Shown here piece by piece: positions 36,392-43,422 of a stretch of DNA of 49,487 nt; within the stretch, counting starts at the first letter, position 1, and each line of letters opens with the position of its first letter. The notes below the pieces were generated by a model, which saw nothing but the letters and a program-made list of their open reading frames with translations, was not told the origin of the DNA and made no database searches. A program made the translations under genes and the position numbers. Source of the DNA: [Collinsella] massiliensis (lineage in GTDB: Bacteria; Actinomycetota; Coriobacteriia; Coriobacteriales; Coriobacteriaceae); the NCBI GenBank assembly GCA_000333815.1, contig CAPI01000082.1, positions 1-49,487 of the forward strand, read 5' to 3'.

Positions 36392-36823
36392 ATGATGGAA
36401 TATATCCAGGAGCTCATGACGCCGCAGGTCATGTTCGTCATCTATCTCTTCCTCGCGTTCATCGTCGCACTGTACGTGCTGTCTGTCGTCTACGTCTTCA
36501 TCGACGCGCGGCGCCGCGGCTCGCAGTACTTCTGGGCGTGGGGGCTGCTCGCGCTCATCCCGTTCGTCGGCCTCATCGCCTACAACGTCCTGCGCCCGAG
36601 CACCTACCTCGCCGACCGCGAGGAGCAGGAGCTCGACATGGCGCTGCGCGAGCGCCAGCTCGCCCAGTACGGCACCTGCCCGCGCTGCGGCTCGCCCATC
36701 GAGAAGGACTTCGTCGTGTGCCCCGTGTGCAACACGCAGGTGCGCAACGTCTGCCCCAGCTGCCATCGCCCGCTCGACGCGCATTGGAAGGTGTGCCCGT
36801 ACTGCCGGACGCACATCCAGTAA
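36392..36823 (+). CDS. Membrane protein with double zinc ribbon
   Basis: 143 residues, family not named with certainty. Two N-terminal helices (about 13-36, MFVIYLFLAFIVALYVLSVV, and 47-66, FWAWGLLALIPFVGLIAYNV) resemble the PLDc_N/TM region of small sensors. A charged linker leads to two cytosolic zinc ribbons: CPRCGSPIEKDFVVCPVCN and CPSCHRPLDAHWKVCPYCR. The second Met (36395) is an alternative start; GAAAGG is 12 nt upstream. A perfect terminator follows at once, so it is monocistronic. Zinc-ribbon membrane proteins of this size often recruit other proteins, but no partner is visible. Confidence 0.85.
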   Translation: MMEYIQELMTPQVMFVIYLFLAFIVALYVLSVVYVFIDARRRGSQYFWAWGLLALIPFVGLIAYNVLRPSTYLADREEQELDMALRERQLAQYGTCPRCGSPIEKDFVVCPVCNTQVRNVCPSCHRPLDAHWKVCPYCRTHIQ

Positions 36824-37114: not shown

Positions 37115-38878
37115 ATGAAGGTTCTATACAACGACGGCCATGTGGACGAGTGCCCGACTGACGAGGTCACCCATGTGGTGCGGCACAGCGCGGCGCACAT
37201 CATGGCGCAGGCCGTGAAGCGCCTCTACCCCGAGGCGGACTTCGCCTACGGCCCCGCCACGGATAACGGCTTCTACTACGACATCGACCTGCCCGAGGGC
37301 CAGAAGATCTCCGAGGACGATTTCCCCGCCATCGAGGCCGAGATGAAGAAGATCGTGAAGGAGAACCTCAAGTTCCAGGTCTTCGAGCTCCCGCGCGAGG
37401 AGGCCATCGCCCTCATGGAGGAGCGCGGCGAGAAGTACAAGGTCGAGCACATCGGCGACCTGCCGGATGACGCCCGCATCACCTTCTACCAGCAGGGCGA
37501 GTACATCGACATGTGCGTGGGCCCGCACCTCACCTACACCAAGGCGCTCAAGGCCTTCAAGCTCACGGGCGTCTCGGGCGCCTACTGGAAGGGCGACAAG
37601 GACAACAAGATGCTCACCCGCGTGAACGGCACGGCCTTCGCCACGAAGGAGGAGCTCGACGAGCACCTGCGCCTCATCGAGGAGGCCAAGAAGCGCGACC
37701 ACCGCAAGATCGGCCGCGAGATGGACATCTTCATGATGCGCGACGAGGCACCGGGTTTCCCGTTCTTCCTGCCGAACGGCATGATCTTGAAGAACGAGCT
37801 GCTGAATTACTGGCGCGAGATCCATCACAAGGCCGGCTACGTGGAGATCTCGACCCCGCAGATCATGAGCAAGAGCCTGTGGGAGACCTCCGGCCACTGG
37901 GACCACTACAAGGACAACATGTACTCCACCATCATCGATGACGAGGAGTACTGCATCAAGCCCATGAACTGCCCGGGCGGCGTGCTCGTGTACAAGTCCC
38001 GCCCGCACAGCTACCGTGAGCTGCCCATCCGCGCCGGCGAGATCGGCCTCGTGCACCGCCACGAGATGCGCGGCGCGCTGCACGGCCTGTTCCGTGTGCG
38101 CTGCTTCAACCAGGACGACGCGCACCTGTTCGTCCGCCCCGACCAGCTCACGGACGAGATCGTGGGCGTGGTGAACCTCATCGACTCGGTGTACCAGAAG
38201 TTCGGCTTCACCTACCACCTCGAGCTCTCCACGCGCCCCGAGGATTCCATGGGCTCCGATGAGGACTGGGAGCGCGCCGAGGCGGGCCTGCGCGAGGCGC
38301 TCGAGCGCCTGGGCAAGGACTACGTGGTGAACGAGGGCGACGGCGCCTTCTACGGCCCCAAGATCGACTTCCACCTCGAGGACTCGCTCGGCCGCACCTG
38401 GCAGTGCGGCACCGTGCAGCTCGACTTCCAGATGCCGCTCAATTTCGACCTCGAGTACACCGACGCCGACGGCTCCAAGCAGCGCCCCATCATGCTGCAC
38501 CGCGTGTGCTTCGGCTCCATCGAGCGCTTCATCGGCATCCTGATCGAGCACTTCGCGGGCAAGTTCCCCACGTGGCTCGCGCCGGTGCAGGTGAAGGTGC
38601 TGCCCGTGTCCGAGAAGAGCCGCTACTACGCGCGCAGCGTGACCGACGCGCTCGAGGCCGCCGGCATTCGCGCCGTGCTCGACGAGCGCGACGAGAAGAT
38701 CGGCTACAAGATCCGCGAGGCGCGCAACATCGACCGCCCGCCCTACATGCTCATCCTGGGCGAGCAGGAGGTCGAGGCCGGCAACATCTCCGTGCGCGAC
38801 CGCTCGAACGAGACGCACGTGCGCGAGCTCACCGAGTTCATCGCCGACGTGAAGGACGAGATTGCCGAGCGCCGCTAG
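37115..38878 (+). CDS. thrS: Threonyl-tRNA synthetase without TGS domain
   Basis: Class II synthetase for tRNA-Thr, 587 residues against the usual ~640. The N-terminal TGS domain is missing: the protein begins MKVLYNDGHVDECPTDEVTH and passes at once into the editing domain (VVRHSAAHIMAQAV, DMCVGPHLTYT). The catalytic core has zinc Cys286 in KPMNCPGGVLV, LVHRHEMRGALHGLFRVR and MLHRVCFGSIERFIGILIEH, and the anticodon domain ends the protein. GAGGAG lies 6 nt before the ATG. No in-frame extension upstream could supply a TGS domain because the leader terminator lies there. Confidence 0.95.
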   Translation: MKVLYNDGHVDECPTDEVTHVVRHSAAHIMAQAVKRLYPEADFAYGPATDNGFYYDIDLPEGQKISEDDFPAIEAEMKKIVKENLKFQVFELPREEAIALMEERGEKYKVEHIGDLPDDARITFYQQGEYIDMCVGPHLTYTKALKAFKLTGVSGAYWKGDKDNKMLTRVNGTAFATKEELDEHLRLIEEAKKRDHRKIGREMDIFMMRDEAPGFPFFLPNGMILKNELLNYWREIHHKAGYVEISTPQIMSKSLWETSGHWDHYKDNMYSTIIDDEEYCIKPMNCPGGVLVYKSRPHSYRELPIRAGEIGLVHRHEMRGALHGLFRVRCFNQDDAHLFVRPDQLTDEIVGVVNLIDSVYQKFGFTYHLELSTRPEDSMGSDEDWERAEAGLREALERLGKDYVVNEGDGAFYGPKIDFHLEDSLGRTWQCGTVQLDFQMPLNFDLEYTDADGSKQRPIMLHRVCFGSIERFIGILIEHFAGKFPTWLAPVQVKVLPVSEKSRYYARSVTDALEAAGIRAVLDERDEKIGYKIREARNIDRPPYMLILGEQEVEAGNISVRDRSNETHVRELTEFIADVKDEIAERR

Positions 38879-38939
38879 GAGTCAATGGGGACGGGTTCAT
38901 TTGACTCGCTGAGTCAATGGGGACGGGTTCAATTGACTC
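38879..38939. repeat. Tandem pair of 29-bp palindromic units after thrS
   Basis: Two copies (38879-38907 and 38911-38939) begin GAGTCAATGGGGACGGGTTC and end TTGACTC; they differ at one base and are separated by GCT. Each has GAGTCAA/TTGACTC inverted ends. They start directly after the thrS stop. Confidence 0.8.
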
Positions 38940-38953
38940 ATCCTCGACGCATG

Positions 38954-38994
38954 CGGGCGCCCTCGGTTTGCCGCCGGGGGCGCCCGTCGTTTCT
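38954..38994. terminator. Bidirectional terminator between thrS and a convergent gene
   Basis: CGGGCGCCC (38954-38962) pairs with GGGCGCCCG (38978-38986), with an inner CGG/CCG pair and TCGTTTCT after it. The left-reading membrane-protein gene ends at 38993. Confidence 0.6.
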
Positions 38995-39646
38995 ATGCGT
39001 GCTGCTCCGCGCCGCCGTCCGGTTTTCCGTCTGCTCGATGCTTGCGTCGCCGCACGCGATGCGCGATCTGGTACCCGCCCGCGAACAGGGCGATCGCCAC
39101 GATGCCGACAATGATGAGGCGGACGCTTCCATCATTGACGATGGTGTGGCCGTTGCGCGTGAGAGCGATCTGCTTCCCGTCGCGCACCGTGACCTCATCG
39201 TGGGAGAACAGGGGCTTGTCGATGCGCAGGCGCTCTTCTCCCGACCCCGAGATGGGGGTCTTCGACGCTCCGGCGACGCGCCAGCGCGCGAGGAGCGGGC
39301 AGGCCTCGATGCCGACAACGTAGAGGCCGCCCGCTGCGTCGCGTACGAGCGCGTACTCGCGCCCGCCGCCCAGGGTGCGGTCGGTATCAAGGAACTGCGC
39401 GAGCGTCCCCACCGGTTCACGGAGCCGCGCGTTGCTGCTCGTCATGCCCACCACCTCGTAGTCCGAGAGCTCGGGAGTCTCGCGCAGGTCGGCGATCGTG
39501 ACGGGAAGGTTGTACGGGTAGATGAGGAAGAGCGCCGTATAGATGAGGGCGAATGCGAGCACGATGCTCGCAAGTCCCGCCGCGACCCAGGCTACCATGC
39601 GAAGGACGATGTGAGCGCCCTCGTTCATAGGGGATTTCGCGTCCAT
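38993..39646 (-). CDS. Two-helix membrane protein of unknown function
   Basis: 217 residues, no family recognised. A helix at about 14-42 (IVLRMVAWVAAGLASIVLAF, then ALIYTALFLIYPYN) is followed by an external domain of ~130 residues with DYEVVGMTSSNARLREPVGT and YALVRDAAGGLYVVGIEACP. A second helix at about 177-195 (LIIVGIVAIALFAGGYQIA) leads to a basic tail RVRRRKHR. AGGAGGAGG lies about six bases before the ATG at 39646; the much longer open frame upstream is a shadow of the PLP-fold gene. It diverges from that gene. Confidence 0.8.
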   Translation of the reverse strand: MDAKSPMNEGAHIVLRMVAWVAAGLASIVLAFALIYTALFLIYPYNLPVTIADLRETPELSDYEVVGMTSSNARLREPVGTLAQFLDTDRTLGGGREYALVRDAAGGLYVVGIEACPLLARWRVAGASKTPISGSGEERLRIDKPLFSHDEVTVRDGKQIALTRNGHTIVNDGSVRLIIVGIVAIALFAGGYQIAHRVRRRKHRADGKPDGGAEQHA

Positions 39647-39809
39647 AGCGGCCTCCTCCTTACCCGGCAGCGCGCATCGGCGCGGGGCGTGTGGGTTTTC
39701 GGCATTGTACCCGCGCGAGCGCGGGCTTGGGCGCTGGGTGTCGAGCGGCCGTTTGGTGTCGGTATACGGTGAGCTTCCCGCGCGCCCGGTTATACCGCGG
39801 CCCATGACG

Positions 39810-39839
39810 TTGGCAGCGGGCGGCGCTTGTCGGTATACT
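39810..39839 (+). promoter_or_regulatory. Promoter of the lysine-free PLP-fold gene
   Basis: TTGGCA (39810-39815), an 18-bp spacer and TATACT (39834-39839). This is one of the best two-box promoters of the window and shows that the odd gene is probably transcribed. Confidence 0.6.
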
Positions 39840-39869
39840 GGTCGGGTCGCGCTAAAGAAGGGGGAGTGC

Positions 39870-40997
39870 ATGTCGCAGCAACTGAGTGAGCTTTGTGACA
39901 GGTACGCGGCTGCCCACGGTGCGCGCGCCTCGTGGATCGTGCGGGCGGGCGACGGCGCCGATGTGCTCGCGCAGACGGGGATCGTCGGCGCGCACGACCG
40001 CATCGTGGCGTTCTCGGGCGCGGGTCGCGCGCGCTTGGCAGAGCTGTTCCGCTGGCAGCACCTCTCGTTCGCCGACGAGCTCACACCCCAGGCGTTCTTC
40101 GCCGCCTCAGAGCTGGTCGATGCCGAGCAGGCCGAGCGCGACCGCCTCGTCCCGCAGGGGTCTCCCGCCTCGTACGCGCATCCCGCGGGCATCTCGTCCG
40201 GGCGGCTCTTCTGGTTCGCGCCCTCGATCGACGCCGCGACTTTGCGCGTGGCCGATATCCGCGCGCTCGCCGCCGCGGCGCAAAGGGTCGGCGCCATCCT
40301 CGTGATCGACAACACCCTGCCCACGCCCTTCGGCTGCCGGCCGCTCGCCCAGGGGGCGCTCATCGTGGTCGAGGCGCTCGAAGGCATGGCGCCGGGTATG
40401 CTCTCCACGCCGCTCGTCGCGGTATCCGTCGCCCGTTCCCAGGTGGCGCATGGCCGCCGTCGGTCGGTGAACCCTGCCGCCGAGGACGCCTACCGCCTCC
40501 TCTCCTTCGGGCTGGGCGCGCCGGGCGCCGCGTCCGCCGCCTGCGCCCCGGGCACGTCCGACGTCGCCGCCCTCAGTGCCGCGCTCGATACCCTCGCCGA
40601 GCGCGAGCAGGCGAGCTTCGACCATGCCCGCGCCATCGCCTCCTACCTGTCCTGCCACCCGGCCGTGGGCTGCGTGCGCTACCCGGGCCTCGCGACGCAT
40701 CCCGACCGCGCCGTCGCCGCACGCACGCTGGAGCACGGGTTCGGATCGGTCGTGGGCTTCTGCCTCACGGGCAGCTGCGATGAGGCGCCCCGGGCGCGCT
40801 GCGAGCGCCTCCGCGCCCTCTTCGAGCATGTCCATGCCGCGCGGCGCAGCATCGAGGACGCCCGCGCGACCATCTCGATCGTCGATGCGGACGAGGTCTG
40901 CTACCTGCAGCTGTATGCCGGCGTCGACGACCCCATCGATGTGGTCGACAGCCTCGACCAGGCGCTGCGCCTCTTCTGCAATCCCCCCGAGCCGTAA
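39870..40997 (+). CDS. Lysine-free homologue of Cys/Met-metabolism PLP enzymes (predicted pseudoenzyme)
   Basis: 375 residues with the fold-type I pattern of cystathionine gamma-synthase relatives: AAAAQRVGAILVIDNTLPTP keeps the cofactor Asp147, VNPAAEDAYRLLSFGLG and SYLSCHPAVGCVRYPGLATH match the C-terminal domain, and the tail VCYLQLYAGVDDPIDVVDSL is canonical. At the site of the Schiff-base Lys (usual SATKYxxGH) it reads VVEALEGMAPGML, and the whole protein contains no lysine. It therefore cannot bind PLP in the normal way. No frameshift or stop is present and promoter and ribosome site (AAGGGGGAG) are good. A regulator, scaffold or new activity is possible. Confidence 0.8.
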   Translation: MSQQLSELCDRYAAAHGARASWIVRAGDGADVLAQTGIVGAHDRIVAFSGAGRARLAELFRWQHLSFADELTPQAFFAASELVDAEQAERDRLVPQGSPASYAHPAGISSGRLFWFAPSIDAATLRVADIRALAAAAQRVGAILVIDNTLPTPFGCRPLAQGALIVVEALEGMAPGMLSTPLVAVSVARSQVAHGRRRSVNPAAEDAYRLLSFGLGAPGAASAACAPGTSDVAALSAALDTLAEREQASFDHARAIASYLSCHPAVGCVRYPGLATHPDRAVAARTLEHGFGSVVGFCLTGSCDEAPRARCERLRALFEHVHAARRSIEDARATISIVDADEVCYLQLYAGVDDPIDVVDSLDQALRLFCNPPEP

Positions 40998-41116
40998 AGG
41001 CGGCGCGGGCTCGCCCCGCTTCCCGCTCGATACGCTCATCGCGGCGCGGTGCCCCGGGCCCGCGCCTGCATCGTGTGCGCGGCGCGTCCGTCGTGCCCGG
41101 TTCGAAGGGATTCACG

Positions 41117-41689
41117 ATGATGGGATTCACCCTCGCCAACCTGATCGAGAGCCTGTTTCTGGGTATCGCGCTCGCCATGGACGCCATGGCGGTGACGCTT
41201 TCGAACACGCTTTGCGAGCCCGACATGCCTCCTGCCAAGAAGCTCGCCATGCCCGTGCTCTTCGCGCTCTTCCAGATGGCCATGCCCATTGCCGGTTTCT
41301 TCGGCGGAACGCTCATCGCGCCCGTCATCGAGGCGTACGCGGGCATCGTCTCGCTCGCGATCCTCGCGTTCGTGGGCGGGAAGATGATCGTCGAGGCCGT
41401 GCGCGAGCTGCGCGACCCCGAGGCCTGCGCGACGACGCGCCTCACGTATGGCACGATCCTCGCCGAGGCCGTCGCCACCTCCATCGACGCCTTCGTCGTG
41501 GGCGTCTCGCTCGCGGCGAGCGGCGCGAACATCGTGCTCTACGGCGGGATGATCGGCGTCGCCACGTTCGCCTGCTGCCTCGCGATGCTTTTCGCGGGCC
41601 GTCGGCTCGGCGCGCGCTTCGGCAGCCACGCGCAGGTCGCGGGCGGCATCGTGCTCATCATCATCGGCCTCAAGGCGTTTTTCGGGTAG
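41117..41689 (+). CDS. mntP: Putative manganese efflux pump MntP
   Basis: Six-helix membrane protein of 190 residues that exports Mn(II) in other bacteria. The two repeats each carry the acidic motif: ALAMDAMAVTLSNTL near residue 18 and EAVATSIDAFVVGVSLAASG near 120. The C-terminus ends GGIVLIIIGLKAFFG, typical for the family. Start at 41117 (MMGFTLANL), six bases after GAAGGGA; 41120 is possible. I see no yybP-ykoY manganese riboswitch in the 119-bp gap upstream. Confidence 0.93.
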   Translation: MMGFTLANLIESLFLGIALAMDAMAVTLSNTLCEPDMPPAKKLAMPVLFALFQMAMPIAGFFGGTLIAPVIEAYAGIVSLAILAFVGGKMIVEAVRELRDPEACATTRLTYGTILAEAVATSIDAFVVGVSLAASGANIVLYGGMIGVATFACCLAMLFAGRRLGARFGSHAQVAGGIVLIIIGLKAFFG

Positions 41690-41708
41690 CCTCGGCGCGC
41701 CATGCAGG

Positions 41709-41729
41709 GGAGGGGAACGTCGCCCCTCC
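41709..41729 (+). terminator. Hairpin after mntP
   Basis: GGAGGGG, 7-nt loop, CCCCTCC. A T-run appears only 15 bases later (GGTTTTTCG), so termination is uncertain. Confidence 0.35.
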
Positions 41730-41790
41730 GTCGCTCCGTGCAGGTTTTTCGCAGCCCGGCAGGGTCGCGCGAGCCGCGCCCGGCCTGCGC

Positions 41791-41796
41791 TACAAT
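41791..41796 (+). promoter_or_regulatory. Candidate -10 box for guaB
   Basis: TACAAT within GCGCTACAATGGC, the same context as before folE. Leader about 105 nt. No -35 box is seen. Confidence 0.4.
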
Positions 41797-41907
41797 GGCC
41801 TGCGAGGTCGCTCGGTCAGGCGACCCCATTCGCGAAGACGCGCGACGTGGAGGCGGCGCCGCTGAGCCCGCCCCTGGATCGCGCCCAACCCCAGAGGAGG
41901 AGTATCC

Positions 41908-43422
41908 ATGGCCATGTTCTTTCCCGGTGAATCCCATACGTTCTCTGAGTACCTGCTGGTGCCCGGCTACTCGTCCTCGGAGTGCATCCCGACGAATGTG
42001 AACCTCAAGACCCCGCTCGTCAAGTACAAGCGCGGCGAGGAGCCCGCCATCAGCCTGAACATCCCCATGGTCTCGGCCATCATGCAGTCCGTCTCCGGCG
42101 AGGAGATGGGCATCGCGCTCGCCACCGAGGGCGGCATGAGCTTCATCTACGGCAACCAGACCCCCGAGTCCGAGGCGGCCATGGTCAAGGCCGTGAAGGA
42201 TCACAAGGCCGGCTTCGTGGTCTCCGACTCCACCCTCACGCCCGACATGACGATGGCCGAGGTCATGGACCTCAAGAACCGCACCGGCCATTCCACCATG
42301 CCCGTCACCGAGGACGGCACGGCGCACGGGAAGCTCCTCGGCATCGTGACGAGCCGCGACTACCGCCCCAGCCGCGACGACCCGAACATGAAGGTCGCCA
42401 CGTTCATGACCCCGCGCGAGCAGCTCATCGTGGGCGACAAGGACATCACCCTCAAGAAGGCCAACGACGTCATCTGGGACAACAAGCTCAACGCCCTGCC
42501 CGTGGTGGACGAGAACGACCACCTCGTGGGCATCGTGTTTCGCAAGGACTACGACAGCCACAAGTCCAACCCCAACGAGCTCCTCGACGCGAACAAGCGC
42601 TACATGGTGGGCGCGGGCATCAACACGCGCGACTACGAGAAGCGCGTGCCGCTGCTGCTCGAGGCCGGCGCCGATGTGCTGTGCATCGACTCCTCCGAGG
42701 GCTTCAGCGAGTGGCAGAAGCGCACCATCGAGTGGATCCGCGCCTGCTACGGTGACGACGTCAAGGTCGGCGCCGGCAACGTCGTGGACGGCGACGGCTT
42801 CCGCTTCCTCGCCGACTGCGGCGCGGACTTCGTGAAGGTGGGCATCGGCGGCGGCTCCATCTGCATCACGCGCGAGACGAAGGGCATCGGCCGCGGCCAG
42901 GCCACGGCGCTCATCGATGTGTGCCGCGCGCGCGACGAGTACTTCGAGGAGACCGGCGTCTACGTGCCCGTCTGCTCCGACGGCGGCATCGTCTACGACT
43001 ACCACATGACGCTCGCGCTCGCCATGGGCGCCGACTTCATGATGCTCGGCCGCTACTTCGCCCGCTTCGACGAGAGCCCCACGGCGCGCGTGAACGTGAA
43101 CGGCCAGTACATGAAGGAGTACTGGGGCGAGGGCTCGGCGCGTGCCCGCAACTGGCAGCGCTATGACCTCGGCGGTGCCTCGAAGCTCGCCTTCGAGGAG
43201 GGCGTCGACTCCTACGTGCCCTACGCGGGCTCGCTCAAGGACGGCGTGAACGCCACGCTCTACAAGATCAAGTCGACGATGTGCAACTGCGGCGCCCTCT
43301 CCATCAAGGAGCTGCAGCAGAAGGCGCGCCTCACGCTCGTCTCGGCCACCTCGATCGTCGAGGGCGGCGCGCACGACGTCGTCGTGAAGGACCGCAACCA
43401 TCAGACGGTGAGCTACCAGTAA
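41908..43422 (+). CDS. guaB: IMP dehydrogenase
   Basis: Oxidises IMP to XMP, the committed step to guanine nucleotides. 504 residues. The N-terminal barrel has [20 protein letters not shown]. Two CBS motifs occupy about 100-220 ([60 protein letters not shown]). The catalytic Cys is Cys319 in [20 protein letters not shown], and the flap region follows. The N-terminal form ([20 protein letters not shown]) resembles the longer IMPDH subtype seen in some anaerobes. GAGGAGGAG precedes the ATG. It appears monocistronic. Confidence 0.95.

Follow-up and report, generated by a model that had tools for sequence, protein, structure and literature searches.

What is an enzyme fold kept for after its chemistry has been lost? 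The question is raised by a gene, here called X, in a window of 49,487 nt from [Collinsella] massiliensis, the whole stretch of DNA that was analysed. The coding sequence of X (39870–40997, +) starts with ATG, its frame is intact to the stop, and the original prediction held in that the 375-residue product contains no lysine. The promoter that had been proposed, TTGGCA-18-TATACT, is present at 39810–39839 (+) as a sigma-70-like consensus match only; it was the sole match in 38880–41300, where 0.2 were expected in shuffles. The ribosome-binding-site-like GGGGGAG was also read in the sequence before the ATG, at 39860–39866 (+). X scored 74.3 bits against Pfam PF01053 (Cys/Met metabolism PLP-dependent enzyme; cut-off 27), which makes it a member by descent and bears out the claim of a recognisable cystathionine γ-synthase-family fold. 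X also matched many solved cystathionine lyases and synthases. Against the NCBIfam enzyme equivalogs, the best score among the 25 of 42 families listed was 83.7 bits compared to a cut-off of 440, and X fell far short of every cut-off listed.

The PLP site of X was compared with that of L001, the canonical enzyme encoded on contig C55 of the window's genome, and the columns were located by the L001 motifs; in methionine γ-lyase numbering they include Tyr59, Arg61, Asp186, Lys211 and Arg375. The Schiff-base lysine column of the alignment falls on Gly172 (codon 40383–40385, +), within VEALEGMAPG, in agreement with the replacement that had been predicted. Lysine was absent from this column in all 84 pseudoenzyme rows (55 from Coriobacteriaceae, the window included, and 29 further rows, which include the Coriobacteriaceae genomes G149 and G141; in the shorter forms of X the site is often deleted and the alignment there is loose), whereas the lysine of the S-x-[TS]-K motif was kept in 7 of 7 canonical enzymes. 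The search for the same loss in relatives thus gave no case, among those examined, in which the Schiff-base lysine was restored. The 55 Coriobacteriaceae rows carry Arg (52), Ser (2) or Gly (1) at this position. Enorma burkinafasonensis has Ser, G004 (outside the 55 rows) has Ala, and the corresponding stretch of the second G002 frame is SLSGA, with the Gly assigned by eye. As had been claimed, the cofactor-facing Asp is kept: the pyridine-N column aligns with Asp147 (codon 40308–40310, +), and all 55 Coriobacteriaceae rows and 27 of the 29 others have Asp, as do the enzymes. The substrate-carboxylate Arg, present in 53 of 55 Coriobacteriaceae rows, is Gln347 in the alignment of the window protein (codon 40908–40910, +), and Gln also occurs in G002. 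The N-terminal Tyr and Arg clamp columns, which belong to the phosphate of the neighbour's PLP, are gapped in 55 and 54 of the 55 Coriobacteriaceae rows, respectively. At the phosphate-binding Ser-Gly-Met/Gln loop the window has Ala, Gly and Asp, with only the Gly coinciding; Ala and Glu occupy the Ser/Thr-before-Lys positions, and the stacking Tyr is a Gly. In total, the window protein has lost or changed the residue in 9 of the 12 PLP-site columns. With Gly for Arg172 and Gln for Arg347, the old active-site pocket appears to have decayed further in the window's genus.

An AlphaFold model of X, built from 44 sequences, reached a pLDDT of 90.1 and a pTM of 0.89. Residues 1–371 of the model matched γ-lyases and sulfhydrylases with Z 33–34.5, and the comparison with 8bis_A (Z 34.5, 309 residues aligned, 2.2 Å) showed the fold of the family. 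Residue 1 of the model aligned at residue 26–83 of the listed solved chains, when one chain with offset numbering was set aside. Because this position was mostly ~60, the N-terminal clamp, which reaches the neighbour's PLP and lies within the ~60 N-terminal residues of the enzymes that are missing here, is absent from X. Compared to the PF01053 enzymes (cystathionine γ-lyase, cystathionine γ-synthase and O-acetylhomoserine sulfhydrylase; 8bis, 2nmp, 4ixs and 7ba4), X shares the fold over nearly its full length, a recognisable sequence, the Asp of the DNT motif and the C-terminal YPGL...GFG core, but it has no Schiff-base lysine, N-terminal clamp, phosphate-binding residues or stacking Tyr.

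The original prediction had also suggested that the loss of every lysine might be a selected trait. This did not stand, and selection for total lysine loss in X was rejected, since the relatives carry 0–8 lysines; over the 53 named Coriobacteriaceae relatives the mean was 4.5, and one had none. Further lysine-free members were found in G116 and G194 and, as read frames, in G086 and G119. At the relatives' rate a lysine-free 375-mer has a Poisson expectation of ~0.8% of cases, and on this ground the zero in X was taken as the low extreme of a family poor in lysine, in a genome rich in GC. No lysine-free case was found among 98 ORFs of at least 300 aa in 289 kb of the window's genome, where the median lysine fraction was 3.0%; these ORFs are heuristic calls, and X is among them from an earlier TTG, with two lysines upstream of the ATG. 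The conserved trait, as judged from the alignments, is the loss of the catalytic lysine together with a low lysine content and not the total absence of lysine.

Orthologues of X were found in 35 of 37 genomes of the same family (Collinsella/Enorma, the window's genome included) and in 4 of 5 genomes of the window's genus. The two assemblies with no orthologue, G001 and G013, gave weak thrS matches only, and the X locus is probably missing from these assemblies, not lost. A scan of named genomes used an alignment as the query, a single-protein query having returned no matches, and gave 67 loci; these came from Collinsella, Enorma and relatives and from some Olsenella/Atopobiaceae, and eight of them were canonical enzymes from other bacteria. 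Strain-specific decay of X was rejected, given orthologues across Coriobacteriaceae and Atopobiaceae genomes. The nearest relative of the window X is 56% identical. In the tree, which was midpoint-rooted for drawing and in which the pseudoenzyme lineage has very long branches, a branch with 100/100 support had the canonical enzymes on one side, and Enorma burkinafasonensis was the sister of the window X (97/90). A 307-aa member with no lysine motif was found in a third family (G038), where its position in the tree is uncertain. In G002, a MAG of the window's genus, the orthologue is split over two overlapping frames (L041 and L088), and decay, sequence error and frameshift are indistinguishable there. 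Plasmid relatives comprised 94 records, all below 60% identity and none covering 80% of the query. The ten plasmid matches listed were 28–31% identical and, where annotated, PLP or aminotransferase-fold enzymes, with no orthologue among those listed.

The dN/dS test that had been proposed was run on 170 close pairs of X (dS 0.05–0.6, NG86) and gave values of 0.077–0.377 with a median of 0.175, thus not near 1; the relatives of the window protein itself are too distant for a dN/dS of its own. Together with the intact frame, these values agree with the original view that X is not an obvious pseudogene. By codon comparison the X family is, with this median, under purifying selection. Over the same pairs the neighbouring genes had medians of 0.025 (guaB, 135 pairs), 0.007 (thrS, 5 pairs) and 0.056 (mntP, 5 pairs), and since dN/dS in X is several-fold above that of guaB, the constraint on X seems moderate. 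A wider set of 344 pairs (dS 0.05–1.2) had a median of 0.233 with values up to 1.25 (up to 0.63 for thrS) and was dropped as noisier; its high values were taken to come, presumably, from divergent, gappy pairs.

In Atopobiaceae (f5), X shrinks from ~290 to ~100 residues. Start codons in this family were chosen by rule and lengths are uncertain by some residues; among the 36 loci read, X measured 220–310 aa in 20, 130–219 aa in 3 and less than 130 aa in 13. Twelve of these 13 stubs belong to one genus, g18, and start 0–17 nt behind the thrS stop, and the remaining stub, in G127, starts 66 nt behind it. The stubs, likewise under purifying selection, had a median dN/dS of 0.208 and a maximum of 0.544 (78 pairs). 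Five stubs of 89–125 aa were scanned and matched PF01053 only at positions ~250–308. What the ~100-aa stubs retain is the core of the C-terminal domain, 56 residues long and equivalent to residues 243–298 of the window protein (40596–40763, +). A model of this core matched 118 of 121 Atopobiaceae genomes, 99 of them with at least 70 bits; part of these 99 were read. In the frames checked, canonical enzymes matched the core model at lower scores. The mean identities in the core (window residues 243–298) and in the PLP part (residues 18–215) were 0.466 and 0.453 among canonical enzymes, 0.639 and 0.520 in Coriobacteriaceae, 0.558 and 0.300 in Atopobiaceae, and 0.422 and 0.257 between the two families. 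Because the two regions differ in identity in the pseudoenzymes and hardly in the canonical enzymes, the seat of function may have shifted out of the PLP pocket and into the core. Nearly all members of the X family have Asp251 and Pro293, which are not the commonest canonical residues at these positions; the window has Ser293.

The usual gene order in Coriobacteriaceae is thrS–X–mntP–guaB. In the window, the recurrent upstream neighbour thrS encodes a threonyl-tRNA synthetase (ThrRS) with no N-terminal TGS match (37115–38878, +), the frequent downstream neighbour is an mntP-like manganese efflux pump (PF02659; 41117–41689, +), and the most constant downstream neighbour is a guaB-like IMP dehydrogenase (PF00478; 41908–43422, +). 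Among the 50 Coriobacteriaceae loci with at least 4 kb of upstream sequence, thrS ended less than 4 kb upstream of X in 29 and was absent from this range in 21, mostly of the C. aerofaciens group. Within 5 kb downstream, guaB was found in 43 of 47 loci and mntP in 30 of 47. The 36 Atopobiaceae loci read had thrS at most 300 nt upstream in 29 cases and at most 30 nt upstream in 22. No thrS was seen beside X in the stretch read of G040 and G069. The tight spacing in Atopobiaceae makes a link with thrS the strongest lead for X and points to a possible role in or beside threonyl-tRNA synthesis, although X lies apart from thrS in the C. aerofaciens group.

The idea that X substitutes for the missing TGS of ThrRS was rejected. 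The association was apparent in a first sample, and no strict dependence was found: G040, G069 and G101 carry X together with a ThrRS match of the long-frame kind (47–49% identity, from residue 15–18, in frames of 648–652 aa whose N-termini were unread), and G037 and G072 have no TGS, yet no thrS-linked X. Short-frame matches to the TGS-less ThrRS, at 70–92% identity, are scattered over the order (also in G037, G072, G088, G160, G046 and G052). Other genomes have a ThrRS form at ~50% identity, with TGS present where the N-terminus was read, and the scatter of the two forms suggests replacement or transfer. Two further genes lie near thrS in the window. A divergent gene between thrS and X (38993–39661, −) encodes a membrane-like protein of 222 aa with no Pfam match. 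A 143-aa protein with PLDc_N and double zinc ribbon matches (36392–36823) recurs upstream of thrS in both families.

We consider it fairly probable that X is an old, vertically inherited, PLP-independent pseudoenzyme with its constraint shifted to the C-terminal core and with a binding or adaptor role; X probably has a new, non-catalytic job. The fold is that of cystathionine γ-synthase/O-acetylhomoserine sulfhydrylase, and by sequence the X of both Coriobacteriaceae and Atopobiaceae has lost the Schiff-base lysine, the clamp at the N-terminus and the residues binding the phosphate and the ring. Constraint has moved from the PLP domain to the 56-residue core, and little else remains of X in one genus of Atopobiaceae. 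Such a protein would neither form a PLP Schiff base nor catalyse a reaction, and would bind its partners or serve as an adaptor via the core. A point against this reading is that PLP could still bind X non-covalently, and Asp147 is kept. A more specific proposal, in which a PLP enzyme of 400 residues was pared down to its C-terminal domain, a protein of 100 residues, and remodelled in Atopobiaceae and Coriobacteriaceae into a dedicated accessory or regulator of ThrRS (or of threonine/tRNA sensing), with the full-length lysine-free forms as surviving intermediates, seems unlikely as it stands.

A retained use of the old pocket is a doubtful alternative: X would handle PLP or another ligand there by a route with no Schiff base, with the conserved Arg172 taking the place of the lysine in most relatives. 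The frequencies of Arg at the lysine column, of Asp147 and of the carboxylate Arg in Coriobacteriaceae would fit such a use, but the residues for phosphate binding and stacking have been lost, position 172 is Gly, Ala or Ser in the window and its genus, position 347 is Gln in the window and in G002, and no pocket is left in the stubs. That carboxylate-binding Arg, kept in most relatives, and the shared fold would also suit X as a catalytically inactive subunit that associates with an active O-acetylhomoserine sulfhydrylase or γ-lyase and modulates it, in the manner of LCB1. One canonical full-length enzyme, L001, is encoded in the window's genome, and a full-length canonical match was found in 23 of 26 genomes searched. 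We nevertheless regard this arrangement as very unlikely, since the N-terminal clamp is missing, the stubs also have no PLP domain, and in the window's genome the gene for X is not on the contig that carries the canonical gene. Moreover, three genomes of genus g85 that are 96–99% complete (G185, G196 and G169) have X behind thrS but lack a full-length PF01053 enzyme (best E values 1e-5 to 1e-6), which argues against an obligate partner and disfavours the active Met/Cys enzyme that had been proposed as a partner of X. The least probable explanation is neutral erosion, in which X would be a long-dead gene in slow decay and the stubs its late stages. It would account for the progressive shortening of X, its faster evolution than that of its neighbours and the split frames in G002. 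It is hard to reconcile with dN/dS values well under 1 for stubs and full-length forms alike, with frames that stay open across two families, with a core whose conservation exceeds that of the remainder when pseudoenzymes are compared but not among canonical enzymes, and with residues fixed in this family such as Asp251 and Pro293 (Ser in the window).

A literature search found no description of the X family, although such an absence is no proof. Ornithine decarboxylase antizyme inhibitors have a different fold type from X and are eukaryotic. In PMC2748086, these inhibitors are inactive homologues of PLP enzymes with a regulatory role, and they resemble X as a PLP-enzyme homologue that is retained with no activity. 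The same paper (PMC2748086) presents LCB1/SPTLC1 as the non-PLP subunit of serine palmitoyltransferase and a homologue of a PLP enzyme, which, as we propose for X, is not itself PLP-dependent; LCB1 pairs with an active homologue, whereas X persists in three genomes with none and shrinks to a domain stub. For trypanosomatid deoxyhypusine synthase, PMC3663545 describes a catalytically dead paralog that is retained, kept though dead as X appears to be, but it is not a PLP enzyme and is an allosteric partner of its active paralog. X may work most like the inactive PLP-enzyme homologues already described, of which LCB1 and the antizyme inhibitors are examples. The forms of X make up a graded natural series, mostly at one locus, of 375, 340, 290, 250, 210 and ~100 residues, with purifying selection where measurable, and with this series one can test directly why an enzyme fold persists once its chemistry is gone. 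It also flags genes of Collinsella, Olsenella and their relatives that score as Cys/Met PLP enzymes though the catalytic machinery is gone.

No Rfam match was found in 38500–42200, and a manganese riboswitch before mntP and a hidden RNA element at the end of X were rejected. The C-terminal tail of X, RLFCNPPEP (40968–40994, +), is conserved as a peptide in most full-length relatives and absent in the C. aerofaciens group; its DNA carries synonymous changes, which together with the Rfam result argued against the RNA element. The canonical enzyme L001 ends before the region of this tail.
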